The notes under the pieces were generated by a model that had not been told where the DNA came from, did no database searches, and saw only the letters and a program-made list of their open reading frames with translations. A program made the translations under genes and the position numbers. Shown here piece by piece: positions 2,627 to 60,478 of a stretch of DNA of 64,000 nt; positions within the stretch are counted from its first letter, which is position 1; each line of letters opens with the position of its first letter. The DNA is taken from positions 7,247,726 through 7,311,725 of the forward strand of contig NC_087074.1 in assembly GCF_026151205.1 (NCBI RefSeq). Direction: 5' to 3'. The stretch is from Bolinopsis microptera. Its lineage: Eukaryota; Ctenophora; Tentaculata; Lobata; Bolinopsidae.

Positions 2627-2699
2627 GCCGAAATAGCTCAGTTGGGAGAGCGTTAGACTGAAGTTCTAAATGTCCCTGGTTCGATCCCGGGTTTCGGCA
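2627..2699 (+). tRNA. tRNA-Phe (anticodon GAA)
   Basis: A complete cloverleaf of 73 nt. The acceptor stem GCCGAAA pairs with TTTCGGC at 2692-2698, with discriminator A at 2699. The A-box region is TAGCTCAGTTGGGAG. The anticodon stem TTAGA/TCTAA encloses loop CTGAAGT with anticodon GAA. The T arm is CCTGG-TTCGATC-CCGGG, which also forms the B box. There is no intron. The last anticodon-loop base is T where A is usual, a small oddity that does not break pairing. The gene should be transcribed by RNA polymerase III from its internal promoter. Confidence 0.95.
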
Positions 2700-4027: not shown

Positions 4028-4427
4028 ATGGTTTTTTCCCAATCAACTCTGATCCGCTCTTCCAAAACGTCTCCTATTACGGGTTATGAAAAGTTCCAGA
4101 AAGGTATATTCGACGTGTCTGAGTTGAAGTCTACCTTTTATATGCATTCTCCTGACAAGTCTTCTCCAGAGAAATCGGAAAGATCGTCACCAAGCTACAG
4201 CAACGGAAACACTCTAAAACACAGCAGCGAAAGCAAAAGCAGCTCAACCCAGCCGCCCAAAGTAGAGAGCAAGTCCCCGAGTTCGACCTCTACTTCTGTC
4301 GAGAACGGTTCACCCCGAAGCTCCTCCAACCCGCTCCAGAACTTCGTACCTAGATTTGCATTCGGCGGCGAGGAAGTCTCTGATTTTTCACCGGTTTCTT
4401 CATTTCCAGAATTCAACCTTCCCTCAG
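4028..4427 (+). CDS. CUT gene exon 1: start codon and Ser/Pro-rich N-terminus
   Basis: Encodes residues 1-133, starting MVFSQSTLIRSS, and leaves in phase 1 at CAG|GTTTGA. Low-complexity Ser/Thr/Pro/Lys composition, typical of a disordered transcription-factor N-terminus. Its exit phase matches the CUT1 exon at 8386. If the donor is ignored the frame stops five codons later (TAA 4442-4444). Confidence 0.8.
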
Positions 4428-7400: not shown

Positions 7401-10400
7401 GTTTTTAAAAGATATTTTGCCAATGAGCAGTCCATTAAGCCTCTATTACGTGATACCCTTTTAACTTTAAAAACCTCCACACTCTGGTCTCTGTTTGTGT
7501 GCGGCTATAAGTACCTCTTGAAGGGGTCTTTGTCAATGAGTAATGTGTTTTTTCACCGTAAACTGTAGACATATTATGATAGATCGATCTAACTCCACTT
7601 TTTAAAGCTTGTCATTTTATTTTACTTGTGTTTTTACTCGTGTGAGTTTGGCAGTATATTTATTTTTCTCAGTTGAAAACTTTTCCTGAAGTTAGAGAGA
7701 AAGTTGGCGAGGTATAAAACCAGGCAGTGATTAATCAGTTAGTAATAAAGTCATTGTTCTGGTTATACCACTCTTTTCACCCTCTGGGTCAATCCGCACC
7801 AAATAACCGCTATTCTAAAGAAACAAACTTATTACTGCCGCAATATCTGCTCTGTTTCCATGGTTACAGCTGAAATTGTGGCAGTGTTTGGTCTAAACCA
7901 TTGACACTAGCCGTTCAGTAACTTTCCCTGCCATTCGAAAACAGCACACGACACTACCACGTGACACTGTTTCCTGGCTTGTTATTGGTTGAAAGGGATG
8001 AGCAACACCCCATAATAGATGATGTGTCTAGACCCACCAACACTCTTGTAGGACTTCACTAAGTTGGAATATTGATTTGGGAAGGGAGCGTGTTGTTCCT
8101 CTTATTATAGAGCTGATCATCTCTTTATTCCATTATCTCCTCCTTCTCTTCCTTAGTCTCTTCATTATCAGCTCCTCTGTGTTTAAATACGTGTTAATAG
8201 ACAAATACTAATAGTTTTATCTGACATTTTTATGAACATAGATAATTTGGGCATTTTAAAAAGAGTAGTTTAAAAGTGTTTAAATCATTTCAATCAACAG
8301 CTATCGGTTTCACGGACACATGGATGAAGTCTTATATACATTTGTGGTTACATGAATAATATCTAACATGTTACCATGGTTACAGGGGATGATCTAGATA
8401 CGATATCGATAGTAAATTCTCTGAAGCAGAGGATGAAATACGAAGGATTGTCTCAGACGAAAGTAGCGAGATCTCTTGGTAAAGGACAAGCGACAGTTTC
8501 CCAGATTTTAAACGTGAGTTCCCATCTCTTTACATAGTAGCCTGTTGGAATTGGCCCCTGAGATGGATAAATAGTAATATCAGTTCCATTCAGTGAAATC
8601 AGAGGCCGATTTGATCAGACAAACCTTTATTATATAAATATTTAATCTCTGTCTATTTCAACTTTAATTATGATTAACTGCTTAACAGCTTCTTAGATTT
8701 GTGTATTATTTACCGATATTTGGGTAACTTAGATTTACTTAAACTTAAATTTACAACATTTACTATCAACTGCGGCTTACCATTTAACCACAAATAATGG
8801 TACAAGTATGCAGCACTATTTATAACTAATAATTTAGGTTAGCATAGATTACAATTGCGGTATTATTATTTATTAAATGTGAGGTATGTGGCGTGGTATC
8901 CATCTGTTTAAGAAATATTCCTGTCACCTAACAACCAGACCCCTGAAATCGTGAATAAAACTCCGGTAAAATGAAAATTGCATATGGTTTATGCATACTT
9001 CTCTCGGCGACCCGACATGCTTGCATAAATTAGAATAATTCATTGGAGCGTATAATTCAGCGTATGAATTGACGTTAGCTAGCTAGCGGGTGGGTCACGT
9101 GACCGGCGTTATAACACCCCCCTTACAATAATAGCATGTCTCTCCCTCACCAACTCTGAACTTTGTAAGTTTCCCTCTAATTCCTGCCTCCCCCTCTGAT
9201 TTACAAGCACGCAAGCACAATGTGAACTATTTTGCCTTTAACTTCTCGCTCTCTCTCTCCACCTCCTCACCAAGTGTCAAATATCGCACCTATAACGCTC
9301 CCGCCAATCAGACAGCCGGATTGGAGTCACGTGGTGTCACGTGAGCGCCCACGTGCACAGTCTCCCCTATAGAAACTGTAAACAGTTGATATTTGGCAAG
9401 TGAGGGGCTGTTCGAGTTGTGCTGATCAATCGTAAGCATAACGTATCACTTGACAACGCGTATAGGAGTCATCCTGCCTCCTCGTCCTCTTCTTCTGCTA
9501 TAGTGTTATCGGTGTAGCAGCTCTACATGTTACACTACTTCTAGTTTACTTTTAGATTCCGCGCTCTTATTTCTCGTTATTGTTATTTTCACTGTCTGGG
9601 TTCCTCTCACTTTGCTTCCCTCGTATCTACTTTCTCTTGCCAGGTTCGTTTTTAGCTCTCAGCTCTTCAAACATTTGTTGTTTACTCGCACATATAATTA
9701 TACGGCTAACTTGTTTGTTCGATCCATATCTTTTTCATATGAAAAACAGAGGCGATGATATCTTACCAGTTATCGATATTATAATATGGAAAATAGTGCT
9801 GTAAATGTGAGAATATCAGTTCTATTCCCGTTCTATTGGTTTGACTAGTTTTGAACACTTCTCATTTTCTCACTTTCCTTCTAGTTATGTGTTTGCGACG
9901 ACAGAGTTTTAAGTTCTAATTTAAAATTACAATCGTATCTTTGTAAGCTTGCAAAACTCTCCGTTCAATAACCCAGCCCACACGTTTCCATGGTAACCAC
10001 ATAATCACGTGACGTTGTCATGGGTACAATGGCAGCAGCTCTAAACCACAGATATCCTTCATAACAATCAGATAGATAAACAGATAGTCTGAGTATTTAG
10101 ATATTTAGTTAGTAAAAGTGTACTGTATTGTTACTCTTACCACAGTTTTACTAAAACATAGTAATTCTCACCAATATTTGTGAAAATACCCAAAACCATG
10201 AGACTATTTGTTAATACTCCGCCTACACGCTAGTGAATAAAATTTCACTAATCGCACTTTATAGGGTAAAGATTTTTCAGTAAAAGTTAAGAAAACATTG
10301 AGATTTAATTGAAGTTTTATCAATAGCTGAACAACGCCCCAGTTAAGTTAAGTGCAAATTTCGGTCCATTTTTACAGTAAATAAAACACATTCCGTTTTA

Positions 10401-13400: not shown

Positions 13401-16400
13401 AATTGTCGGTTTTGCAACTAAGTGTTATGTTTACCCCTCCTGCTTTCTTCCTAAGTGTGGTATTCTGGCGTTATAAAATATTACGGACGTTTTTTCACAG
13501 TAATATTAAAATATATAAGAGGAGTAATATTAAAAGTGCGCAATAGTAACACTTATAATATCATATTATTCGACTATCTTATTTTATTCTTATATTATTA
13601 TCTTACAATGTTATTATTTAATAATCAATATAATTAGTTATCAATATAATTAATAATCAGTGATAATTAGTAATAATTAGCAATCAGTCGGACGTTAGTG
13701 AACGTTATAATAAACCACATCATAGTATAACCTTCAGAATCCCAAGCCTTGGGCTATGCTGACAGAGAGAGGTAAAGACACCTACAGACTACTCAAACTT
13801 TGGCTAGATCAACAAAGTGAGTCAACATAATATGTAGAGGGATATTTTAGTGACTTGTTATGTTTTTAAGTATTCGAAACATTTGACTTTTTGTAATTTT
13901 TAACTGACAGTTATTGATAAAATTGTATAAAACATTCTTTAAAAATACTTCGGCTAGATCAACATCATGTTCTGTTTTATAACCTTTGTTTTTGTTGCAG
14001 TGTTGAGTGAAGGAGAAGAAGGTAAAACCGCATCTTACGACGAACGTTTACAAAAACTAGCTTCCGTAACCGGACTACCCATTGACCAGGTCAGAAACCA
14101 ACTTGTCGCCCTTCTAGCTAACTACTTTCACTTTTAGCTAACTACTCTCACTCACGTACTTACTTAACCACCAATCACAGTCTCACTCACAACTATCTCC
14201 AGTCTCTCAGACTCACTCAGATCTATTCCTCGTCACATGACCCGGTCCTGATCACATGACTCAGTCACCAGTCACCCGACTTGCTTTGTAGTGTCTACTA
14301 GCGGGAGAGAGACGTCAGATTATTTCTGCGACACTCTTCTTCCCTCTCTCTCACATTGTCAGCACCGTCTGTCACTCACCTGACATGCCCTTATTTGGAC
14401 ATCATGTGACCTGACGTCACACCAATTGTTTTTGCGTCAAACTATTCGCTCTAATTACTTCAATAGGCAACTAGTTTCACAAAACGAGTAAACTTGTCTC
14501 TACCAACTAGAAGTAGACGTCTCTTTAAATTTAGTAACTCAGCCAAACAATGTTATATTCTCTTGAAACAGTTGACTAACTCAGTCATTTCAAAAGTAGC
14601 CAAATAATCCATTGTCCTAAAACGTTTTACTAACTGCAGTATTCTCCTGAAACTAACATTCCCTTACATTCCCTCGGCTCTCCCTTCGAAACCAATGAAT
14701 AATATTAGATCTTTAAGTTAGATCTGTCATTACATTATAGTCCCATCATATCACTGTTGTTGGTCGGGCCATGTACCGGATATATTATGTGATACCCTCA
14801 AAAGTGTCCTGAGAAAATGGGGGTGATCCTCTACTGTATGGCCCCCCCCGGCCTCCTTAACTCCACAACTTCCTAACACTTGTCCCATCCTCAGGTACAG
14901 AAGTGGTTATCGTTCCATTCTCAAGACGTTACATCACCCCACAACGGTAACGCTAGTCTCTGCGACAGCTTCAACATGAAGCCTGATATTGAGAACCATA
15001 CCTCACCTCTTTTTAGAGACTCTCCAAAGAACGACATGTTGCTGGATCTTACTCGCATTCGCCTCAAAGGTTTGTTGAACTCTTTCTAATCATTTTTTGG
15101 GATATATTTCTTTTTAGTGTGATAACTTGTTTGACACAAAATTTAATCCATTTTATTTGCTTATCGGCAAACGATGACCGAGTCTTCTGAAATAAAACCG
15201 GCTATTAATATAACCGTTAAGTCGTTATCAGTGATATGATAGCGTTATCGAAATTAAAACTAAAATAACGGCCATGTACAATTATTTTATATGAATTGCT
15301 ACATATTATAGAAATTTAATTCAGTTACCAAATCTGAGAAAACATGCAAATTACACATTATAAACTGGTAGTACAAGATCTATGTCAATTGATTGGATAT
15401 ATATACATATATACAATTCTTTTTTGTGGTTTGGAGACAATATTTCAGAAGTTAAACCTTATATAAAAGGTTCAACTTCTGGAATATTGTCTCCAAACCA
15501 CAATCTCACTATAATAAACTGTTATCCCACATCTCATCTTGTCTCATCTTGTGTCTGGGTGTCTAGAGGGTGTCTCTGTAAAGTTAGCACCCAGTACCTG
15601 GTACTGTATCTGAATCTAATAAGTTCAAGTAGGTTGGAATTAGTTCAAGTATTCCACCTCAGTACTCCCAGTAACTACACCCCTGCCCCATTTCACCTGC
15701 CCCTCCAGTATTTCATTAGTGAAGCTCCCACCATAAAATTAACCTCTGATACTATTGACCGATTAGATTGACGAGGATTTAACATTACATTAGGGTGCAG
15801 CATTCAGTCCTTCTTTATTCGTTTATGTTTCACCCCAATCCTAACCTTCAAAACGCATTATAGACCATACTGTCCACCCCACAGACCTGCCCACGTGTTC
15901 TTATCTCAACCACTCAGAGCTGCGCACACGCGTCACATGACTCGTTAACATGCCCACGTGACATGAAGTCGGTAGAGTTGGGGCACCTCCCCGACTACCC
16001 TCACAACGTCACACTCCATTGACTCTCACTTCGCTCCATTGCGAGGTTGAAATGATTGTAATTCTGGGTAACTAGATTTTCCAGTAGTTGGTTGGGCACG
16101 TTAAAACAGCTGGGCAGTGAGGTGTCCCCGGCCTAATCAGATCTGCCAATTGTAGGTCCCATTAGTAGACCAGGAGGGGGCCTGTGATTGGTCAGCAGTG
16201 CAAATACACGTGGTATTAGGGTCACGTGACATGTATCTGAGAGTGGAATATTACTAGGATTCTGTGCTTGAGAGATAGTTAAAGCGGTGTAAACAATAGA
16301 GTAGTAGTCGCACTGTCTGCCTAATCTAACACTTAATCTAACACTTGACGACTTGTGAATATTACAAGACTGCTACAGGTGGAGGCAAAAGGTGTTGTAA

Positions 16401-31400: not shown

Positions 31401-34400
31401 TAAGTGTTACCCGGTGGTTGTTCTGGTCGAGTGAACGATGCGTCCTGATCATCACCCTGGTTACTGTTAGTAACCACTAGTAACCACTAGTAACCACTGG
31501 TAACCATTTACCTACCACAACTACTTTGGAATGATATATAATTCTATGATTGGAAGATGAAATTAATTGTCGGGTATCTACCCGCACCTGTAATTCTAAG
31601 TGCTGGCTCGTTAAATAGTTCCAGGCTGTTAGAAGTTGTTCCGCAGATAATGAAGGTCAGGAGGGCGATCGTATTGATTTGGTCCTAGTAGCAGCTGATC
31701 TAAGGAGACTAAGTGACATATAAGGGATGAGTTTTGCACTTGAGGATGATCTTTAACCATTATAATAATTGAGCTCAGTGATTCCAGAAAGCGTCTATAA
31801 GTTCAGCACGGAGTTGTTACAATCACGGAGTGTGTCTGAAACATGACTCTAACTCTCCGGCAATAATGTTAGAACAATATGTAACATACTTCTACCACCA
31901 GCATCTCCCGATAATGTGATATCTGTAACTATTATTATTATATGCTGGTGATTGACAGGAGGGATCTGGTAATAATATCGGCACTCTCACCGCCTCCCTC
32001 CAGTTAGAGTTAACCATGTGTTCAGTAGAGCACAGTGAACACCCCTCTTCTTTTTACCGACCAGCCCCCCACAATACACACTTGGTACTGTCAGCCCTCC
32101 TAAACTGCCCTGTCATTCTAATTCAAATTTGATAATAGTTCTAATTTTCGGATCCAGATGTTTTGTATAATCGGATTTATCCACGATACAACTAGCCTAA
32201 TCGGTCCTTTGACCTGAAAAGGTCAGCTGATCTCGTAACAATCACGTGACGAAGAGATCTCCCCACTAAGTGGCAGGATTGTGAAATGAAGCCCGCTGAT
32301 TGGCTGAGCAGTGAGCAGGAGGGGAGGTCTGTGAAACTCTAGGTATAGTCGTAGTACCGGGCTCCTGTCACAAACTTCACCTTGTATCACCACGCGGTGG
32401 TGGTGGTATCCCTGCTAAATGCTAACTACTAACTAGGGGGGGGGGGGGGGGGGGGGGCTGTTCTAATCACCACCACACATTATTCTGACTAACTAGAGGA
32501 TTGTTCTAATTAGAATTGAAGGAGATGTGTGCTGCCCTAAAATCAGTGATAAGGGACGTGTATTACAATCGAATAGTGGATGTCTGAAATTGATAACTGT
32601 TTTGAATAACAAACTGTCTCTGGTTCGGGGCCCTTGTCTAAATTGTTGTGTAACTGCTGATTAACCTACATTACATTATCACGACTACCATTATCTAATA
32701 GTAAATGAAGATTACTGCAATCTTTATTCTCGGGATTAGTTTCGTAATGGTGGCCACTGTAGACCACGTCACATCACGTGTCATGACGTCACATCACGTG
32801 TCATGACGTCACATCACGTGTCATGACGTCACATCACGTGTAATGACGTCACATCACGTGTCATGACGTCACATCTTTTGAAATGACGTCACATCATTTG
32901 ACATGACGTCAAACTATATTCCAAAGCGTTGTAAAACCTAACCCGTACATCCTTTCAGAGGCACTATGCCACCCCAAGCCGTGGGGACGACTATCAGACC
33001 GAGGAAAGCTGATCTACTGTTTCATGAAGCTGTGGTTGCTTCTCCCGGACGAGCGAAGACTTGCTCCTTTCAAGGAGGAATCTCTCCAGAGATTCAGACA
33101 GATCCCAACTCAGGTTAGTGGATTTCAATAATCTCAATTCTCATTGAACCACCATCCAAATTACTTTCTTATGAAAATCCTTTTTCTCATTCACAGTATT
33201 ACTTCACGTGGCATGACCTGATCACGTGACGATACTATCACCTGATGATGAGTTCCTCCTCCAATACGATACCCCGGCCTCATTACAATACAACTACTCG
33301 GAAGCGGGATTATTATTTGGCCTACCGACTACCGTTTAACTACTAATTCGGCCTATGACCGCTGAGAAACACTACTCACAATTCCGCGTCTCTCAGTTAA
33401 TTGATAATATTATTAAAACGATTTAACCTTGAAATGGCGGAAATCAATTCTCAAGCTGCTCACCGGATTATTATTGATCGATTTTATTGCTCATTTGATA
33501 TTTAAAGATGAACATGTTGTGCAGATGAAACCATTTCAACCATAAATCCAATCTAAACTGTAAATCCAGTAAAGCTATATTTCCCTACTACCTAAGGGGT
33601 TACGGAGTTTAGTTCGTTGAACTTTCCTATCTGATGGGAATATCCTCTCTTTGATCTAGATTGCAACACGTTCACTTCGTTACATAATTCTACAGGCAAA
33701 CCACTACTAACAGCTTATCCTGCTGAACTGATGTTCCTGTATTATATAAAACCTTTTGGGAGATATTTGTTGAGTTTAACAAAATGCCTGCTGCTCTGCT
33801 TAACCAGGCATTAAAATGTACGAACTTATCTGTTCCAGTAAGACTGTTGAAGTGTAACGAATTATTAATAACAAGTATTTTTACAGTATAAAGTAACACG
33901 TGTTAAGTTGCTTCTCTACCCACGATACAGTACACGTGTATCAACTCACACCGACCTAGAAACAGTGTGGGTAACCATAGTAACACTGCTCACCTCCAAC
34001 TAGAAACTAACACTACCCTAATCTGCTCCAGCTCTTCGCATCAATAAACACTACTTAAGCAGGGGTAGTCTAATCGTTATCCTCCCTCGTAGTAGACTAG
34101 AACTGTGAGTGAAGGTAGTGTATCCAGACTAGAACTGTGAGTGAAGGTAGTGTAGCAAGTGTCTCCCACTCTCGACAAGTACCCTATAGTAGTCAGGAGC
34201 TACTTTAGATAGCTTTGTAAACCCCAACCCGATACTCACCCTGCAATTAGCGTCTCTTTCAGCAGCTCTGGTATCGCCAGTATTTATTGGTGATATTGTA
34301 ACTAGCTGACTCCGGGCGAGTCTGCGCTTGGCCGTGGTGATTGTTGCGTGGCGCGTTTCTAGGTCCGTTACTAGGCAATGGATGCGCTTGATAGCTCTGA

Positions 34401-37400
34401 GGACTCTTTCAAAAGGATATCTTCATTCTAGAGAAAATTTAATCTACAAGTATAAGCTGGGTATTCACCAGAATCTGCAATATTATTTAGCAAATTGTGC
34501 GATGTTTCCATTCCTCGGTTGCAACATTGCCAGACGTCACGGATTTTATATCAGAACCTGTTTTCATATCAAATAAGTGTTAACGTGGTCTAGACTCTTC
34601 ATTAGATCACATGGGCTGTGATCCTCTCTCTGATTGGTCCACAGCAGGAATACTGCGCTGTGATTGGCCGAGAGGGGGACTATTGGTTGGAAGGTCGGTG
34701 AAGTGAATGAGAATGATTTGCTCAACACTTCACCGTTCATTGTAATCTAATTACTTGAAATATTCGCCACTCGACTGTGTCCTGTGTTGCAGGCTATCAC
34801 GACAGTGCGAATTGCGAGAGGACCAGTAACTGACCAGTAACTGGTAGTGACCAGTGATCTGGTTTAGTTGATGGGCTAATCGTTATCAGGATGTGTATTT
34901 GTATAGACCCCTCTCCATTATCACCCTCCCTCACTCCTGCGTCTGTAAACTACTCCGCCCACCAATAAACACTCTTAACACTGTTAACTCCACCAATATT
35001 ATACTGTATCGAGTATCCGCGTGTGAAAATTGGTAAATAAAACACCACGTGACAGTTGATAAAGTCCCACGTGTGTGTCTTGATAAACTGACCATGTCTG
35101 AAACAATGCTATTTCTAACTCAGTTCTGGTTCTAACATCCTGATAATGGAATGAGTGGGGTATGTATTTCATATGGGAGCCTGTCTGGTATGGGTTCAGT
35201 AATACCACGTGATATCAGAAACAGTATGAGTTGTGCGTTATCACGCGGGCGAGATCACATGACCGACTCGTTAGGGCCAGACTGACAATGCGTTAATAGT
35301 TTAAATCTATTATATCTCCCACTTTGTATTACTTTTATCACTACCATCAAGTCCAGCGAGCCTTGTCAACCCCGTCTGAGGGGAACAGAACATGAAGTGA
35401 GAGTGTCCGGATAAATCAGACCTACTGTCAGAGCAGATGTACTTCATCTTATTTATGCTATTTACATGTGAATTTTGAAACCAGGAATCAGGAATCGGGA
35501 TACCACCAACCATCACATTTTTAGTTATAGGATCATCCCTCATTAAACTCACCAGCTCATAACGATAGCACTATAACTCCATAATATTGTTCTTTATTAA
35601 CTAAGATAACACTAGACTAACTCAGATAACACTATATTAAGTCAGATAGTAAACCAATAAAGCTCACTAAAACTAGTCTGATAAACCAGCCTCTATCAGC
35701 CCCTCTAACCAGTCTGTTAACATCAGTATACTAACCATCCTCTCTCTCTCTGCAGGCTATACCAGTCTTAGAGCACGAGTTTAAACTCTACAAAGGAGCA
35801 CCCCCCAAGATGGTCAAGGAAAAGCTTGCGGAGGATCTAGGCTTGGAGTACTGCACTGTAACCAATTTCTTTTCTCACTGCCCTTCATCCAACTCTCTCT
35901 TTAAAAACGATGGTTAGTTAGTTTAAAGTTAAAAGTTATATTATAGTGGCGTTCCTTGATTAATTGTTTGCCTCGACAGATTCTGTGATAGCTTAACCGC
36001 TGCTGTATTCATAGATTTTCGGGCGAAGGTTTGTCTTTAAAAGTCAGAATTAGTACCACAGTCGACAGATATCTGATAGTTCATGTCAAGTTTCCTTAAT
36101 TGAGTTACACATAAACTGGGGGTTGAATGGAGTAACTATCAGCAATGCCAACCTCAAATGATTCGGCTTCACAGAGCTTTAAAAGTCCTTTCCTCTAAAG
36201 TGACAATACACAAAGTAAGTAACAGATAATAGAGCCAGAAATAGAGACTCTGATAACTCCTCACCTACCGTCCTATCACTCTCGTCATACCTTTTGTAGC
36301 ATTGTCCTCCTCAATTCCTCATCAACTAGTCAATACCTTCCCCTCCTGCTGGTAAAATATAGCTTACCTCATCAACTAGTCAATACTCTCCCCCCCCCCC
36401 CCTAAAATATAGCTTATGTGCACACTGGTAAAGCTATGCAGCGCTTATCTGACCTTCACCGATACTCCAAATAACACCGAAAATCAGCGTTAACATTTTG
36501 GTATGCAGAGTTTGTTAGTGGATAAAAGTTAATAAAAGGAATGTATCTTGACTCGGCGGTTATTTTAAATATGCGTGGTCACTCGATAACGTAAACATTT
36601 AAACCTAACCTTTGATTCGTTAGAAAGTGCTAAGTAAACCACCATGACCTGTTCGACCCAATTCAGACTTTTGAATTAAACATATACAATGAGGTCTGAT
36701 CTTCTTGCAGCTTGACTCGCCAGTAATTTGAAATGTGCGTGATAACTAAGGTTAAGTTATAAGTGATAGAACGTACTGTTCACTAACCTCCACAGTGCAG
36801 AACTACAGACCAGCTAACGAACTAATAGTAATCCCCGACCTGAAAATATGTTCTCATTTCTTGTAAAAACAAATGTTAACACCAGGTATTTCGAGATCTG
36901 TTTGAGTCTGCGCCACCCCTATCATAGCATCATAAACATCCCTACTCCTTTATAATAGTGTTGATTGGCAGTCTGTTGACTGTGTACCGCCCATTAGCTA
37001 CTAAAGGTCGGCGCCCACGTGATAACGCGCAACTCCACCGATAATAACATTACCTAGCTACTAAAATCATTATCCACATAACAGTAAGAATACAGTGTTA
37101 TACAGTGAATAGCACGTTATTATCCATAATGTGGTGGTTTTATCAGAGGATCTGAAACCGTAAATCTGATTGACGTGGAACAGTTTACAGTTCGTAAGAA
37201 AACTGCTATTGTTACCAGGTTAAGTCTCAGTATGGAGACTAGTAACCACGTTAATCAGGGTGAAACATTACAGACAGTATCAAGGTTATGAGTATATTAG
37301 AAATACTGTAAAAAACAGTATTAAAACTATAAATCTAATCGTCCTCTTTATTTCAGTGACATACAGTTCGTGCCTGCCCACCATGGTGAAGTACCCCTCC

Positions 37401-40400
37401 CCAATGGACACCCTGCACAGCTTCAAACCTGACTTCCACCCCCAACTACCCCCTCTGAGCCCAATGGGCCGGGTACCGGGGCTCAGTCCTCTACACACTC
37501 TCACTGCTCTTCATAGCCAGGAGCTACAGGTACGTTACTCCAGATAACTTCCTCAGAGGGGGGCTATCTGTGGGGCTTGGTGCTCACAGATTAGCGCTTA
37601 TAAATAATACATAGCGTAAACAACATAATCGGTTAATTCCTCCTCAACAATCTTTCTCTTTTACTCTTTTAGAACCTGCCAAAACGTTTTCACAAAATTA
37701 AACTCCACTTTGCCAGATTATAGCTTTGTCCCAGTCCCAGATGTTTATACCCTCCCACTATCTAAATACTCAGCAGGCAGCACCTATCTAGATTCCTAGA
37801 CCCTACTTAGTAGACCCCTAAAGTTCCATTAAATTTCAGAACGGCTTACTTGGACGATCCAAATCGTTCTTATTAGACGCAAACAAAGAACTGGACACAC
37901 TGAAGATTGTCGCTGCTCTCAAGAACAGACTAAGACTATTAAACATCTCCCTACACACCTTTATTGACAGCGTTCTGTTGAGGAAACACAATGGCACCAT
38001 GGTGAGTTACACAGTGGGTAATCTAGTGGGTAATCTATTGAGTAATACTCACTACTCACTACTCACTACTCGCACACTCTCTGAGGTCTGAGTATGTAAT
38101 GGTAGATGATGCTTTACTAAAACAAGAGTGAGATATGGATGAACTCTTCAAACCTCGTTACTACCAAACAAGCACCCCTTATTGGAAATAGTTTTGAACA
38201 CCACATTCTGGATAACACGATCAAATAGATAAGAATAAGTTTGTTATCTCTACTTAAAATGATACATATACTTGTACGTGAGCTACAACCAGGACGGACA
38301 CTAATAACGCACTATCCCCTGCAGGTGACCCTGAACGATCTGCTGCTTCACCCCCGACCCTACATTACACTAAACCCGCACCAGAAGGAAGTGTTCCTCA
38401 CCATCAACCACTGGCTGGATAGACAACCGGCTGAACAACTCGCTTCTATCTCAGCTTTCAAGCCTTTCGGTGAGGATTCTTTTGTCTTCTCTGCAACTTT
38501 AATCTCTATCATATACTTGGACTTATTGAGCAATCTGAAGTCTGAATAATCCTGACATGTTCTACAAATACCACTCTGACATTACCTCCCTGTTCCTCCA
38601 CTTAATATTACATATATTTCAGACTCGTTGTTGTTCAGCAGCATGGAGATGACAGAGATTCAGAACATCATCTCCGAGACTCACAAGTTTCTGAAGCAGT
38701 ATAATCTATCACAGGTATCCACCAATAAACTCAGCTCTTCATAAGCTTGACCCTCATTCGTCGTACCTTATTGGTCCGAAATAAGTTTTCATTCTCTCAA
38801 CTTTTATTGCGAACTTTCAATTGCTGAGCGAGAGAACGAATAAGATGAATGAAAACGTACCTATCAATGATCGAATAATTTGCAAAGATTTCATTTTTGA
38901 ATAAATCTATTTTTTTAATAAATTCCCTGGCTTCTTATAAAGCTTCGAAATGTTTGAAAACGAAAGTTAAATCTAACGAATGATACGTAGATTCATTTTC
39001 TCACTAATTTATCTACCCCCTGTTTCACTTTCACTAACCCTCTTTCTCTCCCCAGGACAGGTTTGCTACCAGAGTACTCTCAGTCAGACCGGAGGTGTTG
39101 CAGGACCTTTTCAACTCAGCTCCCCGGACCTGGACCCAGCTGACTCACGAGCAGAGGAACATCTGCCACATCCTGAGGGAGTGGATTAATGACAAGGACA
39201 AGTTCGCTCTCTTCCTCGACAGCCAGGAGAGGTGAGAGAGAGAGAGAGAGCACACTTTACTTTTCAATATTCAGTAATATTCAGGATAACTTTCACTGAC
39301 TGTTTTATCGCTTCTTTTACGTGGAAAACCTTTCATAAAACTTCTAAATTCTGCAAGTTTCAATGGGCCTTATCGGCCAATGACCTTATCGGCTAGATCA
39401 GCATAAAATATCTTAATATTGTAACATTCAGCAGTGCATTAAAAGTGTTATATTTACCCCCTTGATCTCACAATGGTAGATTAAGCTACTGTGAAGATTC
39501 AGGCATTTTAAAACTGCTAATTGAGATAATAAGGGCGTTTATTGGCCTTATTGAGAAAGAGCAGTGGACCATTATCTGGGTAGACTACTCGACTGGATAG
39601 AAGGGCCGTGATAAGGTTCATTTAATGGGAGACGGACAAATTCCACCGTAAAAAGCACGGTAGTAGCGCGGCAGGTCCCTTGTATTGAGGGTGTTATTGG
39701 TAATAAGAGGATTATGTGAGGGGTTTTAACAGTCTCTTTTCTCCCTTATCAGCAGCACGCCTAACTGTTCCGATAGTAACGCAACAAATCTAATTACCCG
39801 GATTATTGCAATTTTAATTCGGGGTATTTAGAATAGGGCTCAACGGTTATCATCACTTTCCAATAAGATGGTTCGTGATAAGAGGGTAAAGTGAGCGGTT
39901 CCGTGATTTTTAACACTGCACACAGCTGCATTGTTCTTCGGAACTGAACACGTGCGCTGAATTCATGGTCGTCACGGTACTGTTCACTACTGTATCCGTG
40001 ACATCTAGCCTCCACGTGAAGGGCAAGCCGATAAAACAATCCGTGAACTTGACGATAACAACCGATAAGCAGGTTTAAACCAACCAGTCACCTGTTTACC
40101 TGGTCACTTACTAACATTATGTGTTTCAGCAAGTCTCCTAAAGTGTCCAGAACGTCTCCCTTGCCCAGTGGTAGTAGAACCGGGAGTGCAGCTAACCCCT
40201 TTATCTTCCCCAACACTTCAATGGTGAGTTTAACAACTAAATATTTCCGATCTACTTCATGTACAGTTTACAACTGGTTTCTGGTCCGTCCAGGTTCAGA
40301 CACGGAGTTGTGGAGCTTCTGGTGAGGCCCAGGAACTGGTAGCGGTCTGGTAGAGGGAATCCTCCCCCCCCCCAGTCTCCTGTCACGTGTTAACCACGTG

Positions 40401-43400
40401 ATAATAAGGTCACGTGATGTCCAATAACCGGTCGCAGGGTTGACTCATAACGGCGCGCGCATGGTCCTCCTTTATTGGAATTACGCTCAGAATGATTGAA
40501 AATCCCTCCCACATCTTTGCGTCTTAAACAAAACATATATACAGTTCTCGGAGTTGAAATTGTGATTATAATTTTAACAGAGTCTTTTGAAATCCCAACA
40601 AATAACGAATGTCCTGCCCCAGGTAAAAACGACACTACCAGTGATAACATCCAGCCTGCCTCTTAGTTTGAGCAGTGGAGTCTGTCTTAACAGTGGAGTC
40701 AGTACTCCCTCCGTCCGCAGTCCACCTACAACTATCATCCAGACTCTCGCTACATCCTCCACCAGGTATGTTTTTACCACTTTTACCACTTTTACCACTT
40801 TAGCTACTGCTTACTGGGTTGTATTTGCCACTTAATACCACAGTCACCCACATTTCACGACACGATAGCTATTTCAAAAGATCTTTAGAACTTCTGGTAT
40901 GCGACAGTAACAGTTACTAAATACATTACTTCTATTAGCTGAACTGCAAATCTAGCCAACAATAAGGGTCGGAACTGTACTGCTAAGTTTTCAGCCCGCT
41001 TACTATTTGGCATATCTATCACCCTATCCCAGTATACATTTCACATGGCCCCTTTCCCTGCTCCGAATCTCCATATTCGCATTAATAATACAGCAATGAC
41101 ACCTACCTAACGGCTCCCTCCCAAATATTGACAAATACAGTGCTTATAGTTCTATTAAATCTATACCTGTACCTCTGATTCGCTGCCGGTGGTCCCCGAG
41201 TTTGACGAATTGTTGGCTATTTAGAGTAGAGCACGGCTGGAGAGTAGTGAAAAGGAGAAACATTAACAGTTGCTACATTAAATGTCAGTAGTGCTAATCT
41301 TACCTGCAATTAAATTAGCATCAATTGGAGGTATACATTAAGACAGCCAGAGACTGTGTCACCACGTCGCACCCCCTATTTTACAGTGCCTAATTGGGTT
41401 ACTAGATATATCTATATTTTGTTGTGGCCCCACGGGGCTCAGACGCGTGCACTGCTCCCCGCAGATAGGCACTACTAATTAATTTAATGGACACACTTAC
41501 TACTACTAGATTAAATAGGGGACTTGTAAGGCTTTCAGTATGGAAGCTTTCTAACGACAACTTGGGGCTAATGAAGATTGACTTTTCATCCGCCGATATT
41601 AAGTCCTGAAAACGTTTTGACCACTGATTTTAACCACAAATTTAATAAAAGGATTAGGTAAGGATCCGGGTTAGCGTTTTGTTAAAACAAGACGTGTCTA
41701 ATAATCATGAATATTAAGCAGGGGTGTAGGAATAATACCCCTGATATTAAGGGCTTGGTACTTTGGGCTAAGTTGTAGCTCACATTGGAGCGGTAAAAGC
41801 CGAAGCTCCTCACTTATTTGTGGTAGGATCTGCAAAATAAAGTAGATAATTCTCAGCTAGATAATGTGGTAATACCAGTATTATATCCACAGCATATATC
41901 CACATACACAGTTAGCATTATATCCACATGGTAGTCCTATTACTTTAGTGATATAAATACGGTGCTGATACTTTTAGCAAGTTTTCTCTCCTATTGTCCT
42001 GCCTTATAATATAACCCGCTGCTTAGTCTCAAATACTGGCGAGAACTGCGAAGAAGAATAATCCCAGATACTGTGTGCAGAGGTAGACAATACTCCTTCC
42101 ATCCCATGATTGCATTAAGAGTGCAGATAGTTTACTGTACTAGCTTACTAGCTATTATACTGCAAGGCTACTAGCTGCGTATTAAGTGCGTGGTTACTTG
42201 CTGCGACCTGTGAATTGTGATGAGTAGTTGCCACAAACTTCTCGTGAGGCTAGTGAGTTGTAATTGTCTTATTATCCTGTCTGCAACGTGTAGATTTAGT
42301 ATACAGCATGTGGTAAATAACACGTGTCTTATTTTGACGTTGCAAATAAAATCTGTGACGTCACGCGACGTGAAGTGTGACGTCTCCCGTCACGCCACGT
42401 GACGTCATAAGATGTTCGAGAATACTCCGTGTTTTTTTTTGCATCCTGGCTCGTGCCTCCAAGAAATGGGCCGAATGTGAAGACTGCACATGCGCCAACT
42501 GCGATCTGAAGTCCTTACAATAAATAACTAAATTAGACCCTTACGTTCGATTGTTAAACCTGATTCTTGAAAATTCTGTTAGATTTGACGAGATTAACAA
42601 AAGAAGGAGGCTTGTTAACAGGATGTTAATCAAGTGTAGAGAATTAAAGGAATCAAATTAATGAAAATACTCTGATTTTCCGGCCATCATCAGGTGTTTG
42701 TGACTGACCACGTGACACAGTACTTCTTCCTGATTGGAGGGCCAGACTCGGCTGTGGTCGCTGATTGGCTAACTGTGGTTTCTATCAGACAGTGTCTAAC
42801 TTGATTCCATAAAACAAGAAAACACCTAGCCACTGAAAATCTGGGTATTGTTTAGCTTTTACTCGAGTACTATTCCCTGAGAGCAGCCTCTACTTTATAA
42901 GTGTAGTGAGGACAGGATTAATTTTAGGAACAAATTATGAGAATAAATCAATCAGTTGTAAAACTCTATCCCTCATCTGATTACCGTGGTTATTATTATC
43001 ATTACCATTGTTAAAAAGAGAATCTCACCCACACCCTTCTCAGAGAGGGAGAGAGAGAGAGAGAGAGAGATGTTTTTACAAGTTTACAGTGTCTTCGTTA
43101 GAGCGTGAAATGTAATTATGGTTGAAAGTTTGGATCTATCTTTGGTGGCTTATTCTGTTCGTGTAACCATTACAGGTGGAAAGTGTTATAGAGCGCTGTA
43201 GAGCCTGAGATACGTGCTTAACCACTGGCAAACGCCCCTACAATACTCGAACACATATTCTTCCAATACTTGCAACACTTACACATATACTTCCAGTACT
43301 TACAACACTGATAAATACTTACAATACTTCCAATACTGATAAATACTCGGGGGGATTGTACGAGGTTTGACCCTCCCCTCTTGGCTTTTGTTAAGATGTT

Positions 43401-45728
43401 TTAGCAATCCAGATAAAATCGTAGACTCCATCTCCCATCTCTATTATGAAATCTATTAAACTGCCTCACCAATACGCTAGTATCTGTTTAGCTACCTACT
43501 GTTTAGCTACTTACTGTTTTAAGAGCATCACATCTTCCAATATTAATCAAATTTCACGGACCAGTAAACCGATTACCTAACAGTGAGACGCTATTTTAGC
43601 AGAATCAACTCAGCCAACTGAATCTTATGTTAGAATTTATCAACCATATTACTGACTAACCCATCACTATCTTCATAATCTGCTTCTTTATCAATCTTTA
43701 TCATCTTCATAATTGTTATACTCCGTTATCAATAAGTCAAGAGCTATAGCCATAGCACATACATAGTCAGCTTATATAAGCTGTATCAAACAGAAAGAAC
43801 ACTAGTTTAGCAATATTCTATAAAGTTATTGCTCTCTTGCAAAATATGCGAGATTGTGCGTAGTTATCTTGAATAGTGACACTGTACGTTGATGTCTAAT
43901 ATCCGAATATTACATAGTTATCTTATAGTTTGTGGACGATATATAAATCAAAATAGTAAGTTAACAGTGTCCCAACTTCAGTGTACCTGCGTTTAAACTG
44001 GGAGAAGAAGGAAGAGAAGAAGGAGGTTCCACGTCTCCCTCTAACGGCACTGTAAAGTGCGAGCAGGGCAGCTCACCTATGGAGACCTCTCCCAGCAAGA
44101 TCAACAGCTGTCCTAGGGACTTCTCTCCTAAGGTAAGACTTGGGTTCTCTTTGGGGTTAAGTCTCGCAGTAAAGCCAACTGTAGTCACTACCTTCTATTT
44201 CCATTTTTCCCTTTATTAATAAAGTTATGAACCTCAAAATCTGCCTCTAAACCACTACCTCCCTGTTATAGTCCCCAATATAACGTATATCCCCTTTAGT
44301 CGGACAAGTCAGATGGAGGAGGATCAGTATCCTATCCCAGCTACACGGAGCAGACGAGAAGTGTAGGTTCCCAGAAGTACCCAAGGCAGGAGTGTTGTCA
44401 TGAAGCTTTCCACGTAATGTTACAGCACGTCCGCGAAACCAGCTCCAAGAATCTCATGCTTTGCAATCGTGAGTATTGTTTTTCAACTGGTTTAGTTTTG
44501 TTTTGTAACGGTTACTTTGGTGATGATGTTAGGGGCCCACTTCCCCAGACAGGGCCCAGAGAAAATTTGATTTCAAAATTCTTCCTGATACTGGGTTCCT
44601 TTTTAATTGTCGTCTCAATTATCGGAATCATCCGTCGGGATAAGGAAACAAAATTTTTAATAAAATCAGAGTTTGCAAATTTGAAATATGCGTTATAATT
44701 CGCTCTTAGTTTAATTAATGCATTATATGAGTTATTTGAAATGTAAGTTATGTAGCACGTCACTCTCTCGTGCTCATTGTTTATTACAATCGTGGCCCAG
44801 GATTTCCGTCGAACAAATGTCGATTAAATGACAAGAATGACTTGTATTCGACGCGCTGGAATCCAGCCAATTAATTCCTCCATTAGCTCAAAGTTCATAG
44901 CACATAGCTGCTTGTCACGAAATATTCTTTAGACGTGATTAAATGGGACTGATAATCAAAATATTGCAAATATGTTTCGATAAGATGAACTGCTCGGCGA
45001 GCTTGTCGCGTATTCAGTAACAATGGAATTCCTGCACGCCAAAAGTAAACAAAAATCCGCTAGTTTTGTGAACTGTTAAGTATTGAGTATTGATTTTTAC
45101 TCTGCATTTCTCGGGCAGCATGCCAAGTTAACGAACTTACGCGTCACGTGATTGCACGTGGGCTGTTTTTCGCGTGCACACTGTTTTCCGATAGATAAAA
45201 TGATTTGTTACGATTATCAGACGTTTTAACTTTCAATTCGAATAAAACCTGCGACCTGTCAGAAGGTTCTAAAATACTAGTGGAGTTCATATTTTATATG
45301 ACGTTAGTAATTAAAACAATTGATATTAATTTGACAAATTGATTGAACAAAATAACTAATCAATAATAATTTCAGACCTGGAGCAGATTTATAAACATTT
45401 AGCGCCCGTCAAAAGAGATCGGACATGGACTTCCCCAAATACTGGTAAGTTGAAAACTATTTAAGTTTCAGTATTAATATTTTTAAATAATCTGCATAAA
45501 CATTACCCTTAATATTACCCTTGAATTTCAAGTCCATCTAAAACAGGACCATAGAAGGACTGATAAGCAGAAGGGCTATTGAATAACCAACTATATTTGC
45601 CACCTATTTAAAAAATGCCTCTATAAGAACTAATAAGCGTAAGTAGTAGTGAATAACCAGCTACCTTTACAGAGACTGACCTGGACAACCCAATGAAGAG
45701 AATCAGGATGTCGTCCCCTAACAGCTGA
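4028..45728 (+). CDS. multi-CUT-domain homeobox-like transcription factor, 20 exons, 919 residues (whole gene)
   Basis: I assembled 20 GT-AG exons with mutually consistent phases. They sum to 2760 nt (919 residues plus TGA). Approximate domain order: Ser/Pro-rich 1-133; CUT1 135-202; homeodomain-like helices 213-242; CUT2 306-370; degenerate homeodomain about 380-433; CUT3 518-590; CUT4 611-680; Ser/Thr/Pro-rich tail with KRIR near the C-terminus. CUT hallmarks are visible: SQ starting the recognition helix in CUT1, CUT2 and CUT4, and NPKPW or HPKPW in CUT1 and CUT2. The likely role is nuclear sequence-specific DNA binding, by family. The second homeodomain-like segment has F, F and H at the positions of W48, F49 and N51, so canonical homeodomain contacts are probably lost. 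ONECUT, CUX and SATB are the nearest classes, but none matches this architecture. Exon identity is well supported. Extra or alternative exons cannot be excluded without transcripts. Confidence 0.88.
4428..8385 (+). other. CUT gene intron 1
   Basis: About 4 kb with no convincing exon. It carries a cluster of RFX/X-box-like palindromes (5860-5873, 6158-6171, 6282-6295, 6702-6715, 6818-6831, 7854-7867, 8370-8383), so it may be an enhancer-rich first intron. The last of these palindromes abuts the exon 2 acceptor. Confidence 0.7.
8386..8513 (+). CDS. CUT gene exon 2: CUT1, first half
   Basis: Residues 134-176. The helix pattern is DDLDTISIVNSLKQRM followed by GLSQTKVARSLGKGQATVSQ, which matches the CUT consensus of a first helix, then the SQ-initiated recognition region and a Gln-(Gly/Ala)-Thr-(Val/Leu)-Ser motif. 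Enters in phase 1 and leaves in phase 0 at AAC|GTGAGT. Confidence 0.9.
9325..9357. promoter_or_regulatory. E-box cluster in intron 2
   Basis: Three CACGTG cores lie within about 33 bp, preceded by another at about 9097 and an inverted CCAAT box (CCAATCAGACAG) at about 9304. This resembles a bHLH-zip or NF-Y bound regulatory module, by motif only. Confidence 0.5.
12134..13183. repeat. 44-bp purine-rich minisatellite, about 24 copies
   Basis: Tandem 44-bp units with a constant core (GGACTAAAAGGAGGAGATTG) and a variable segment. Variant types occur in blocks: six alike in a row from 12181, then triplets that alternate between 12580 and about 12975. The strand is strongly purine-biased. It lies wholly inside intron 2. 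Confidence 0.97.
13738..13816 (+). CDS. CUT gene exon 3: CUT1, second half
   Basis: Residues 177-202, beginning NPKPWAMLTERGKDTYRLLK and continuing LWLDQQ. This is the conserved second half of a CUT domain (NPKPW loop and the final amphipathic helix ending in a W). Acceptor AACCTTCAG; leaves in phase 1 at CAAA|GTGAGT. Confidence 0.9.
14001..14089 (+). CDS. CUT gene exon 4: linker and homeodomain-like helix 2
   Basis: Residues 203-232, including YDERLQKLASVTGLPIDQ. This matches homeodomain helix 2 and the turn into helix 3. Acceptor TTTGTTGCAG; leaves in phase 0 at CAG|GTCAGA, splitting the homeodomain-like unit just before its recognition helix. Confidence 0.82.
14895..15069 (+). CDS. CUT gene exon 5: homeodomain-like helix 3 and linker
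   Basis: Residues 233-290, beginning VQKWLSFHSQDVTSP. VQKW aligns with the start of a homeodomain recognition helix, but the WFxNR core is not kept and no helix 1 is evident before it. The rest is a linker. Acceptor CATCCTCAG; leaves in phase 1 at AAAG|GTTTGT. Confidence 0.82.
15070..17356 (+). other. CUT gene intron 5
   Basis: About 2.3 kb. Contains the long hairpin at 15424-15503, several CACGTG cores (about 15890, 15955, 16208, 16222) and CCAAT-box sequences near 17010-17050. No exon recognised. Confidence 0.7.
15424..15503 (+). ncRNA. candidate pre-miRNA-like hairpin
   Basis: The left arm 15424-15460 and right arm 15467-15503 are 37 nt each, around a 6-nt loop (ATATAA). By eye the stem has only one G-U wobble and one A-C mismatch. 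Size and shape fit an intronic microRNA precursor, and expression would be in the sense of the host gene. It could instead be a small fold-back transposon remnant; the near-perfect stem is compatible with both. Confidence 0.5.
17357..17401 (+). CDS. CUT gene exon 6: short linker before CUT2
   Basis: Residues 291-305, EEDILDLFKRAPDCE, a 45-nt phase 1-1 exon. Acceptor GCATTTCAG and donor GAAG|GTTCTT. The donor is weak and the exon is short, but the phase is exactly what both neighbours need. Confidence 0.65.
17402..19036 (+). other. CUT gene intron 6
   Basis: About 1.6 kb without a recognised exon. E-box cores occur at about 18371 and 18382. The open frames near 18311-18572 on both strands look like chance. 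Confidence 0.65.
19037..19138 (+). CDS. CUT gene exon 7: CUT2, first half
   Basis: Residues 306-339: EEISGEVRREIEKHSISQGM then FSQKILRRKQATLS. This is a clear CUT first half with ISQ and QATLS. I place the acceptor at TTCCTCTCGACAG (pyrimidine-rich, phase 1) rather than GGATAG at 19011, which would need another phase. Leaves in phase 1 at CAG|GTTCGT. Confidence 0.9.
19529..19738. repeat. E-box minisatellite (21-bp and 18-bp units)
   Basis: Tandem 21-bp units containing CACCACGTGCAGTACACTT, mixed with 18-bp units (CACCTGCAGTACACTTAC-like) that lack the CACGTG core. The long and short units alternate in a two-long, one-short pattern. The array starts about 390 bp after exon 7. Confidence 0.95.
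21780..21957. repeat. 31-bp CCAAT-box repeat
   Basis: Three near-identical 31-bp units (about 21858-21955) plus two older, diverged ones upstream. Each contains CGCTCTGATTGGCTGATCGG, with the CCAAT-box core ATTGG. A related sequence occurs elsewhere in the window (for example 24352-24372 and 34617-34665). Confidence 0.9.
22798..23534. mobile_element. TTAA-flanked fold-back element (piggyBac-like MITE candidate)
   Basis: A long inverted repeat. The left arm runs 22802 to about 23159 and the right arm about 23178 to 23530, with an 18-bp A-rich centre. Arms are about 355-360 bp and nearly identical by eye; the G/C runs at the tips differ in length. Both ends abut TTAA (22798-22801 and 23531-23534), as expected of a TTAA target-site duplication. 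The tips are GGGGGCC and GGCCCCC. No transposase is encoded, so it would be non-autonomous. The superfamily call rests on the TTAA only. Confidence 0.8.
23830..23884. repeat. AGTAGTG heptamer repeat
   Basis: Seven to eight tandem copies of a 7-bp unit (GTAGTGA), ending in a diverged GTAGCGA copy. Confidence 0.95.
24778..25110. repeat. 29-bp minisatellite, about 11 copies
   Basis: Tandem 29-bp unit containing CAACTGAAGGTCACCAGT followed by GGTTCTTG. Point variants are shared between non-adjacent copies. Intronic. Confidence 0.95.
25905..26770. repeat. 36-bp minisatellite, about 24 copies
   Basis: Tandem 36-bp unit containing CCTCCCCCAGTTCAGTGTTT, with a few 33-bp units missing CCAGC-like bases. 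Because 36 and 33 are multiples of three and the unit lacks stops, all three plus frames stay open for over 300 codons. These are not genes. Confidence 0.97.
28496..28840. repeat. three copies of a dispersed 24-mer
   Basis: The sequence CTCCTTCATAAAACACATTG followed by TTAA occurs at 28496, 28625 and 28802. The last two copies share a longer 3' extension (AATAACAAATAA). A shortened relative is at about 56523. It may be the end of a small dispersed element. Confidence 0.8.
31113..31188. repeat. 25-bp E-box repeat, three copies
   Basis: Three copies of a unit containing TGCACGTGCACATTCACGGT. Each has the palindrome GCACGTGC. Confidence 0.92.
32436..32457 (+). repeat. poly(G) run of 22
   Basis: An uninterrupted run of 22 G residues in intron 7, about 500 bp before exon 8. 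It could form a G-quadruplex. Run length may be affected by sequencing error. Confidence 0.9.
32765..32914. promoter_or_regulatory. CRE/E-box tandem array, 20-bp period
   Basis: Seven to eight tandem 20-bp units containing ATGACGTCACATCACGTGTC. Each pairs a full CRE palindrome (TGACGTCA) with an E-box (CACGTG) in most copies. The last copies keep the CRE but have lost the E-box (ATCTTTTG, ATCATTTG). The array ends 45 bp before exon 8. CREB/ATF and bHLH-zip binding is inferred from the motifs. Confidence 0.85.
32959..33113 (+). CDS. CUT gene exon 8: CUT2, second half, and start of homeodomain-like segment
   Basis: Residues 340-391. EALCHPKPWGRLSDRGK gives the conserved CUT loop, followed by LIYCFMKLWLLLPDERR as the last helix. 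SLQRFRQIPTQ then leads into the homeodomain-like segment. Acceptor ATCCTTTCAG completes the split Glu codon with exon 7. Leaves in phase 0 at CAG|GTTAGT. Confidence 0.92.
33114..35755 (+). other. CUT gene intron 8
   Basis: About 2.6 kb without a recognised exon. Contains two CACGTG cores at about 33207 and 33224, a 31-bp direct repeat at about 34099-34155, CCAAT-box sequence at 34617-34665, and further E-boxes at about 35045, 35070 and 35205. Confidence 0.65.
35756..35912 (+). CDS. CUT gene exon 9: degenerate homeodomain
   Basis: Residues 392-443. VLEHEFKLYKGAPPKMVKEK and LAEDLGLEYCTVTNFFSH read as homeodomain helices 1 to 3. L396 and F400 fit core positions 16 and 20. The W48-F49-x-N51 signature is replaced by F429-F430-S431-H432, so the DNA-contact Asn is missing. 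Acceptor CTCTCTGCAG with a long pyrimidine tract; leaves in phase 1 at GATG|GTTAGT. Confidence 0.9.
35913..37356 (+). other. CUT gene intron 9
   Basis: About 1.4 kb with no exon recognised. Contains a C run (36391-36402) and one E-box core near 37016. Confidence 0.6.
37357..37529 (+). CDS. CUT gene exon 10: Pro-rich linker
   Basis: Residues 444-501. Contains TMVKYPSPMDTLHSFKPDF and HPQLPPLSPMGRVPGLSPLH, a Pro/Leu/Ser-rich linker between the two DNA-binding halves of the protein. Acceptor TTTATTTCAG; leaves in phase 0 at CAG|GTACGT. Confidence 0.85.
37840..38001 (+). CDS. CUT gene exon 11: CUT3, first half
   Basis: Residues 502-555. KELDTLKIVAALKNRLRLLN then ISLHTFIDSVLLRKHNGTM. This fits the CUT first half, but the usual SQ has become SL at 538-539, so the domain is diverged. 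Phase 0-0; acceptor AAATTTCAG and donor ATG|GTGAGT. Confidence 0.88.
38325..38469 (+). CDS. CUT gene exon 12: CUT3, second half
   Basis: Residues 556-603. VTLNDLLLHPRPYITLNPHQ then KEVFLTINHWLDRQPAEQL. HPRPY stands for the NPKPW loop, and NHWLD for the end of the last helix. Acceptor CCCCTGCAG; leaves in phase 1 at TTCG|GTGAGG. Confidence 0.9.
38623..38714 (+). CDS. CUT gene exon 13: CUT4, first part
   Basis: Residues 604-634. MEMTEIQNIISETHKFLKQY then NLSQ: CUT helix 1 and the start of the SQ recognition region. Acceptor ATATTTCAG; leaves in phase 0 at CAG|GTATCC. The intron sits right after SQ, a different position from those in CUT1 to CUT3. Confidence 0.85.
39056..39231 (+). CDS. CUT gene exon 14: CUT4, remainder
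   Basis: Residues 635-692. DRFATRVLSVRPEVLQDLFN and SAPRTWTQLTHEQRNICHIL followed by REWIND complete a fourth CUT-like unit (APRTW for the NPKPW loop, REW for the last helix). Acceptor CTCCCCAG after a long pyrimidine tract. Leaves in phase 2 at AGAG|GTGAGA, immediately followed by a GA microsatellite. Confidence 0.9.
40130..40223 (+). CDS. CUT gene exon 15: Ser/Thr/Pro-rich tail
   Basis: Residues 693-724, including KSPKVSRTSPLPSGSRTGSA and FIFPNTSM. Low-complexity tail. Acceptor TGTTTCAG; leaves in phase 0 at ATG|GTGAGT. Confidence 0.82.
40623..40765 (+). CDS. CUT gene exon 16: Ser/Thr-rich tail
   Basis: Residues 725-771, including LPVITSSLPLSLSSGVCLNS and SPPTTIIQTLATSS. Acceptor CTGCCCCAG; leaves in phase 2 at ACCAG|GTATGT. 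A TTTTACCAC repeat follows at 40771-40800. Confidence 0.82.
40766..43981 (+). other. CUT gene intron 16
   Basis: About 3.2 kb without a recognised exon. Contains E-boxes (about 42321, 42397 and 42708), CCAAT-box sequence near 42725-42775, a (GA)n run at about 43046-43070 and a short CAATACTT-type repeat at about 43245-43345. Confidence 0.65.
43982..44132 (+). CDS. CUT gene exon 17: acidic and Ser-rich tail
   Basis: Residues 772-822, including FKLGEEGREEGGSTSPSNGT and SPMETSPSKINSCPRDFSPK. Acceptor CCAACTTCAG; leaves in phase 0 at AAG|GTAAGA. Confidence 0.82.
44300..44468 (+). CDS. CUT gene exon 18: tail with a short helical segment
   Basis: Residues 823-878, including SDKSDGGGSVSYPSYTEQTR and ECCHEAFHVMLQHVRETSSK. 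The second part looks helical and has conserved-looking Cys and His, but matches no domain I know. Acceptor CCCTTTAG; leaves in phase 1 at AATC|GTGAGT. Confidence 0.82.
44469..45375 (+). other. CUT gene intron 18
   Basis: About 0.9 kb. Two CACGTG cores lie at about 45146 and 45157. The open frames at 44417-44698 and 44512-44763 are intronic shadows. Confidence 0.65.
45376..45444 (+). CDS. CUT gene exon 19
   Basis: Residues 879-901: HLEQIYKHLAPVKRDRTW then TSPNT. Phase 1-1; acceptor AATTTCAG and donor ACTG|GTAAGT. Confidence 0.82.
45673..45728 (+). CDS. CUT gene exon 20: C-terminus and stop
   Basis: Residues 902-919: ETDLDNPMKRIRMSSPNS, then TGA at 45726-45728. The KRIR patch is a possible nuclear localisation signal. 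Acceptor CCTTTACAG. I could not fix the polyadenylation site; an AATAAA at about 47611 is far downstream. Confidence 0.82.
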
Positions 45729-60009: not shown

Positions 60010-60144
60010 CTGAAATAAAACGAATATCACTCCGAATTATTTTAAAGACGTATGTTATATTGGTTAATTAAGTTCCCATTACGCTCAGAATTAGCTTACA
60101 ATAATATAATTAGATCGACTAAGAGTTAGTACAAATTACTATAC

Positions 60145-60291: not shown

Positions 60292-60478
60292 CTGAGACGT
60301 TTTGAGTAACAGTAAAAATATAAAGTAACTGGTAACAGTAGATCGTGAAAATACCCGTGAGTAAAACACCGGATTTCACACGATCTCCCAGGTTTACAGA
60401 ATTTGGGCGCGAATTAGTTTTCATTCTATGTTATTTTACGATTGTTCGTGGCTTTATGAGATAATAAGACTTATTGTC

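Follow-up and report, generated by a model that had tools for sequence, protein, structure and literature searches.

CUT-class transcription factors are known from three established families, in which ONECUT proteins carry exactly one CUT domain, CUX proteins three CUT repeats followed by a C-terminal homeodomain, and SATB proteins at least two CUTs together with N-terminal COMPASS/ubiquitin-like and CUT-LIKE domains; none of the three, as they are described in the excerpted text of a 2023 review, combines four CUTs with internal homeodomains (PMC10515288). In the structure of ONECUT2 on DNA, as excerpted, the bases are touched by Ser364, Gln365 and Asp370 of the CUT domain and by Asn476, Arg479 and Arg480 of the homeodomain (PMC11490551). 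Here we describe a gene of the comb jelly Bolinopsis microptera (phylum Ctenophora), LOC134812952, which NCBI names 'uncharacterized protein LOC134812952'. It lies in a window of 64,000 nucleotides (C3:7247726-7311725) of a 264.65-Mb assembly in 232 contigs, and its predicted product contains four CUT domains as well as two homeodomain-like segments that have decayed, HD1 and HD2; no C-terminal homeodomain was found. Our data are best read as evidence of a new or highly derived subfamily of the CUT class.

The four-CUT gene model

The CUT exons were located by scanning the open reading frames (ORFs) of the window, splice sites were then read and the exons joined. The resulting model, built from profile matches and splice sites, has 20 exons on the + strand at 4028-45728, about 42 kb (41.7 kb), that yield a 919-residue frame, and all 19 introns are GT-AG with compatible phases. 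A preliminary description of this DNA had proposed 20 exons with their phases, and our independent rebuild returned the same span. An NCBI protein, P0002 (595 aa), matches model residues 325-919 at 595 of 595 positions, and so provides independent confirmation of the splice junctions, exon 7/8 to exon 19/20.

All four CUT domains pass the Pfam cut-off for CUT (PF02376, 24.4 bits) when scored alone. CUT1, with its N-terminal half in exon 2 (8386..8513) and its C-terminal half, including an NPKPW motif, in exon 3 (13738..13816), reaches 61.0 bits when spliced (E 1.1e-16). CUT2, split between the end of exon 7 and exon 8 (32959..33113, C-terminal half and the linker to HD2), reaches 65.3 bits (E 5.1e-18). 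CUT3, with its two halves in exons 11 (37840..38001) and 12 (38325..38469), scores 40.9 bits (E 2e-10), and CUT4, with its N-terminal part in exon 13 (38623..38714) and the remainder in exon 14 (39056..39231), scores 37.4 bits (E 2.7e-9). The preliminary description had staked its claim on profiles recognising CUT3 and CUT4, and they do; moreover, predicted folds of the counterparts of both domains in a related protein, P0001, agree with the five-helix CUT fold, the first matches listed for them being CUT domains of solved structure. With a CUT profile, the eight CUT half-exons score 19.2-64.8 bits, against 10.0 for the next real-ORF match and 7.2 for the best reversed-ORF control; this profile was built partly from the same domains, which makes the scan partly circular, and the Pfam scoring is independent of it. 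A genome search with PF02376 is blind to short split exons, and missed three of the four CUTs of this very gene.

By Pfam and alignment the domain order is CUT1, HD1 (partial), CUT2, HD2 (degenerate), CUT3, CUT4 and a tail, as had been suggested, and P0001 holds the complete order, with four CUT stretches, a Homeodomain match, and an HD1 that is recognised by alignment only. HD2, in exon 9 (35756..35912), sits at the Pfam threshold: against a Homeodomain cut-off of 22.9 bits, it scores 23.0 within the full-length model, 22.2 by itself, 24.5 in P0001 and 17.4 in P0002. For HD1, with helix 2 in exon 4 (14001..14089) and helix 3 plus linker in exon 5 (14895..15069), the evidence is weak: only a helix 2-3 piece is seen, with a Homeobox_KN match at E 0.1 in the window and a Homeodomain match at E 0.035 in a relative, P0021. 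No homeodomain follows CUT4 among the Pfam matches to the window model and P0001, in both of which the Homeodomain match precedes CUT3, so that the earlier claim of four CUTs without a C-terminal homeodomain stands.

The remaining exons encode the N-terminus, linkers and tail. Exon 1 (4028..4427) is Ser/Pro-rich and starts at Met 4028 or 4142; P0001, from its residue 2, aligns just after Met 4142. Exon 6 (17357..17401; EEDILDLFKRAPDCE) forms, with the end of exon 5, a conserved segment ahead of CUT2 in which 26 of 28 residues are identical in P0001, and exon 10 (37357..37529) is a Pro-rich linker. The tail runs through exons 15 (40130..40223, Ser/Pro-rich), 16 (40623..40765, Ser/Thr-rich) and 17 (43982..44132) to exon 18 (44300..44468), which holds a conserved segment, ECCHEAFHVMLQHVRETSSKNLMLCN, predicted to be helical in P0001, then to exon 19 (45376..45444; HLEQIYKHLAPVKRDRTW) and exon 20 (45673..45728), where the protein ends in KRIRMSSPNS and a stop, the C-terminus being identical in P0001. 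The conserved tail segment at 44300-45444, ECCHEAFHVMLQHVRETSSKNLMLCNHLEQIYKHL, helical by prediction in P0001, has no Pfam match and is a candidate interaction domain.

Relation to ONECUT, CUX and SATB

Aligned to ONECUT2, the four CUTs fall into two kinds. CUT1 and CUT2 retain Gln365, Thr367, Ser369 and Lys376, and at the position of Asp370 have Gln and Glu, respectively, Glu being found there in several references as well. In CUT3 and CUT4 the Gln365 position is occupied by His or Pro, in both Bolinopsis and P0001. Ser364 and Arg373 are retained in none of the four. In HD2, FFSHCPSS aligns to FFMNARRR of ONECUT2, placing His at Asn476 and leaving no Arg pair at Arg479/Arg480. Across all domains Bolinopsis and P0001 are 57-97% identical, and conservation follows the split in kept DNA-contact residues: it is high in CUT1 (71/76), CUT2 (78/80) and HD2 (63/65) and lower in CUT3 (56/85) and CUT4 (46/80), with HD1 at 21/33.

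Resemblances to each family are evident. In a PDB sequence search ONECUT1/2 rank first across the CUT2-HD2 module, ONECUT proteins (HNF6/ONECUT2) giving its best match over both domains, and CUX2 ranks first for CUT1; with HD2 alone four ONECUT chains come first, not significantly (best E 0.48). ONECUT also shares with this protein the Gln of the Q365 type, kept in CUT1 and CUT2, and a Phe at homeodomain position 48 (PMC10515288, in part), where the window has FF and P0001 YF against FF in ONECUT2. Like CUX, it has multiple CUT repeats, and repeat 2 of CUX2 gives CUT1 its highest score. SATB, too, has at least two CUTs, and the SATB1 homeodomain is described in the same excerpts as unable to bind DNA directly (PMC10515288). 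Amphioxus Acut is named there as a further gene of the CUT class, one with a 'unique domain structure' (PMC10515288, in part).

These resemblances might indicate that the gene belongs to an established family and is a derived CUX or ONECUT in which domains were gained or lost in ctenophores; we consider this unlikely. It draws on the ONECUT match of CUT2 and HD2 and the shared Phe48, and on trees from which CUT2 with ONECUT (p-AU 0.255) and CUT1 with CUX (p-AU 0.347) are not rejected once CUT3 and CUT4 are left out. The CUT1-with-CUX grouping is, however, not in the best tree. In the 19-row tree of CUT repeats, the references of which are vertebrate only, each ctenophore CUT stands in its own pair on its own long branch, and the CUX repeats (84/99) and SATB CUTs (100/99) form groups apart from them; the ctenophore repeats come together only weakly, in 40% of bootstrap trees, and CUT1 with CUT2 at 59/68 when CUT3 and CUT4 are removed. 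The layout argues further against a derived family member. ONECUT has a single CUT, whereas here there are four, the homeodomain is internal and lacks equivalents of Asn476 and Arg479/480, and a long tail follows CUT4; CUX has three repeats and a C-terminal homeodomain, whereas here there are four repeats and neither that homeodomain nor a CASP-type match; and SATB has N-terminal domains that find no match here. No CASP-like, COMPASS/ubiquitin-like or CUT-LIKE domain was among the Pfam matches to E 10, although few with E above roughly 0.1 pass HMMER's filters. CUT-class membership holds by domain, while membership of ONECUT, CUX or SATB fails on the defining features tested. The proposal of a new or highly derived subfamily is supported by the profile scores of CUT3 and CUT4, by the one-contig relative P0001 and by this layout.

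Overall, we think it probable that the gene encodes one ctenophore regulator of the CUT class, which binds DNA and is presumably nuclear, and that it represents a separate subfamily, CUT1-HD1-CUT2-HD2-CUT3-CUT4. Its origin may lie in the duplication, within one gene, of an ancestral CUT-homeodomain unit. From the residues that they keep, the base-reading Gln and several backbone contacts, CUT1 and CUT2 would act as a tandem pair in DNA binding. The strongly conserved HD2, which lacks the DNA-reading Asn and Arg residues, would, by analogy with the SATB1 homeodomain, extend CUT2 in a structural or protein-binding role and be no second DNA reader. CUT3 and CUT4 retain the fold; because the glutamine is lost and the difference between species is larger, they probably serve another role, such as self-association, partner binding or an altered DNA contact.

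Relatives and the exon 7 frame break

A first protein search returned 20 proteins, two of which, P0001 and P0002, belong to the four-CUT family; all the rest, 18 in number, are vertebrate CUX2 proteins that cover no more than 41% of the query, at 24-35% identity. P0001, of 903 aa and 70% identical over the searched region, lies on a 4459-base contig (source 'lgn'). Since its 903 codons occupy 4459 bases and the Bolinopsis exons are spread over 41.7 kb, P0001 most likely derives from a spliced transcript, and it is presumably a ctenophore protein. A further search added P0021 (219 aa, EukProt), which covers HD1 to the first half of CUT2 and whose identifier style would fit Pleurobrachia; a third returned P0002 alone. 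The suggestion that the subfamily is lineage-restricted is supported only as far as the searches reach (two family members among 20 proteins, one of them from Bolinopsis, and one fragment), and such searches cannot show absence elsewhere.

Two versions of exon 7 must be distinguished. The in-frame 919-residue model uses 19037-19138. P0001 and P0021, however, carry CEATxICTQYAERVNLWIARGNFLST ahead of CUT2, and the window encodes the same words at 18964-19036, with a good acceptor upstream. At 19017-19020 four bases, GGGC, stand where the relatives need one Gly codon, that is, there is one extra base, and it is because of this base that the 19037 acceptor keeps the frame. Judging from the relatives, exon 7 therefore probably starts at 18964 rather than 19037, as 18964..19138, with ATEICTQYAERVNLWIARG ahead of the N-terminal half of CUT2. 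When it is read in this way, translating the longest ORF of the transcript from the first Met yields exactly the NCBI protein of 595 aa, which is therefore the expected product of the extra base; if that base were absent, a protein of about 943 residues would result. The extra base may stem from an error in the assembly or from a polymorphism; a search of the assembly showed no second copy of exon 7. The public protein is shortened by a one-base frame break, and CUT1, HD1 and part of CUT2 escape domain surveys that rely on it.

Such a break raises the question of whether the model fuses two neighbours, CUT1-HD2 and CUT3-CUT4-tail, or whether the locus is a pseudogene. The NCBI annotation, at 595 aa and starting in exon 7, the frame break relative to the relatives and the 13,820 bp of intron 7 might all be cited for one or the other, but we hold both to be very improbable. 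P0001 runs continuously through all domains on its one contig, which argues for one gene and disposes of the refutation that the preliminary description had allowed for, exons belonging to two or more genes; the NCBI protein itself has CUT3-CUT4 in one chain with HD2 and the latter half of CUT2; and the identity of the domains to P0001, together with exons that are open and splice sites that are intact apart from the extra base, speaks against these readings as well. Contamination or horizontal transfer from a bilaterian is hardly credible: CUT is reported as absent from Mnemiopsis (PMC2959044, in part) and the searches returned no four-CUT relative with a non-ctenophore name, but the gene has 19 introns, sits inside contig C3 of the assembly at 7.25-7.31 Mb and is named as Bolinopsis by NCBI; another full-length relative and a fragment are known, and vertebrate CUX2 is only distantly similar.

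The surroundings contain several other features. A tRNA-Phe (GAA) gene lies at 2627-2699 (+), about 1.3 kb upstream of the CUT gene. Just upstream of exon 8, at 32766-32911, is a 20-bp tandem array of 7.3 copies with TGACGTCA- and CACGTG-type palindromes, and this array may contain regulatory sites. Long minisatellites occupy 12134-13171 (44-bp unit), 25890-26768 (36), 53657-54448 (20) and 55492-56387 (26); the first two sit in introns of the CUT gene. None of the three forward frames is interrupted in the 36-bp array, which does not indicate coding. On the minus strand, at about 59.8-62 kb, cysteine-rich ORFs, one of which (60122-60430) matches Ephrin_rec_like (E 4.2e-5), probably belong to a gene of extracellular-receptor type.

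CUT genes in early animals

According to the excerpted text of Ryan et al. 2010, no Mnemiopsis homeodomain grouped with CUT, the class was apparently lacking there, and it counted among five homeobox classes missing from that ctenophore; their Table 3 gives CUT as absent from Mnemiopsis and the sponge Amphimedon, and also from Nematostella and Trichoplax, for which two text and table disagree (PMC2959044). A putative Nematostella CUT gene had been reported in 2006 (PMC1779571, in part), and the glass sponge Oopsacas is reported to be without Cut (PMC10280926, in part). The 2023 review of CUT genes nowhere contains the word 'ctenophore' (PMC10515288), and we found no description of a ctenophore CUT gene among the matches listed in the open-licence literature. 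Because the 2010 survey worked from homeodomains, and these are decayed in the Bolinopsis gene, such decay would be a likely reason for a miss if Mnemiopsis has the gene. Since Bolinopsis is itself a ctenophore, and the class has been reported missing from a ctenophore (PMC2959044, in part), the subfamily reading gains weight.

We are inclined, with some reserve, towards a broader account, in which the pairing of CUT and homeodomain predates the split between ctenophores and the other animals that have CUT genes, being present in their last common ancestor, and the published ctenophore absence is wrong, an artefact that arose because the homeodomains had decayed too far for classification. The four-CUT factor would then have been built within ctenophores, with DNA reading residing wholly in the CUTs and the homeodomains serving as scaffolds. 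If this is true, and if ctenophores branched first, sponges lost the CUT class.

The presence or absence of homeobox classes has served as evidence for the branching order of animal phyla. In this context, a ctenophore CUT gene with an adjacent ONECUT-like, decayed homeodomain moves the origin of the class earlier, and shows how such absences can arise. The gene also offers a natural test of the role that CUT domains play when no homeodomain works beside them.
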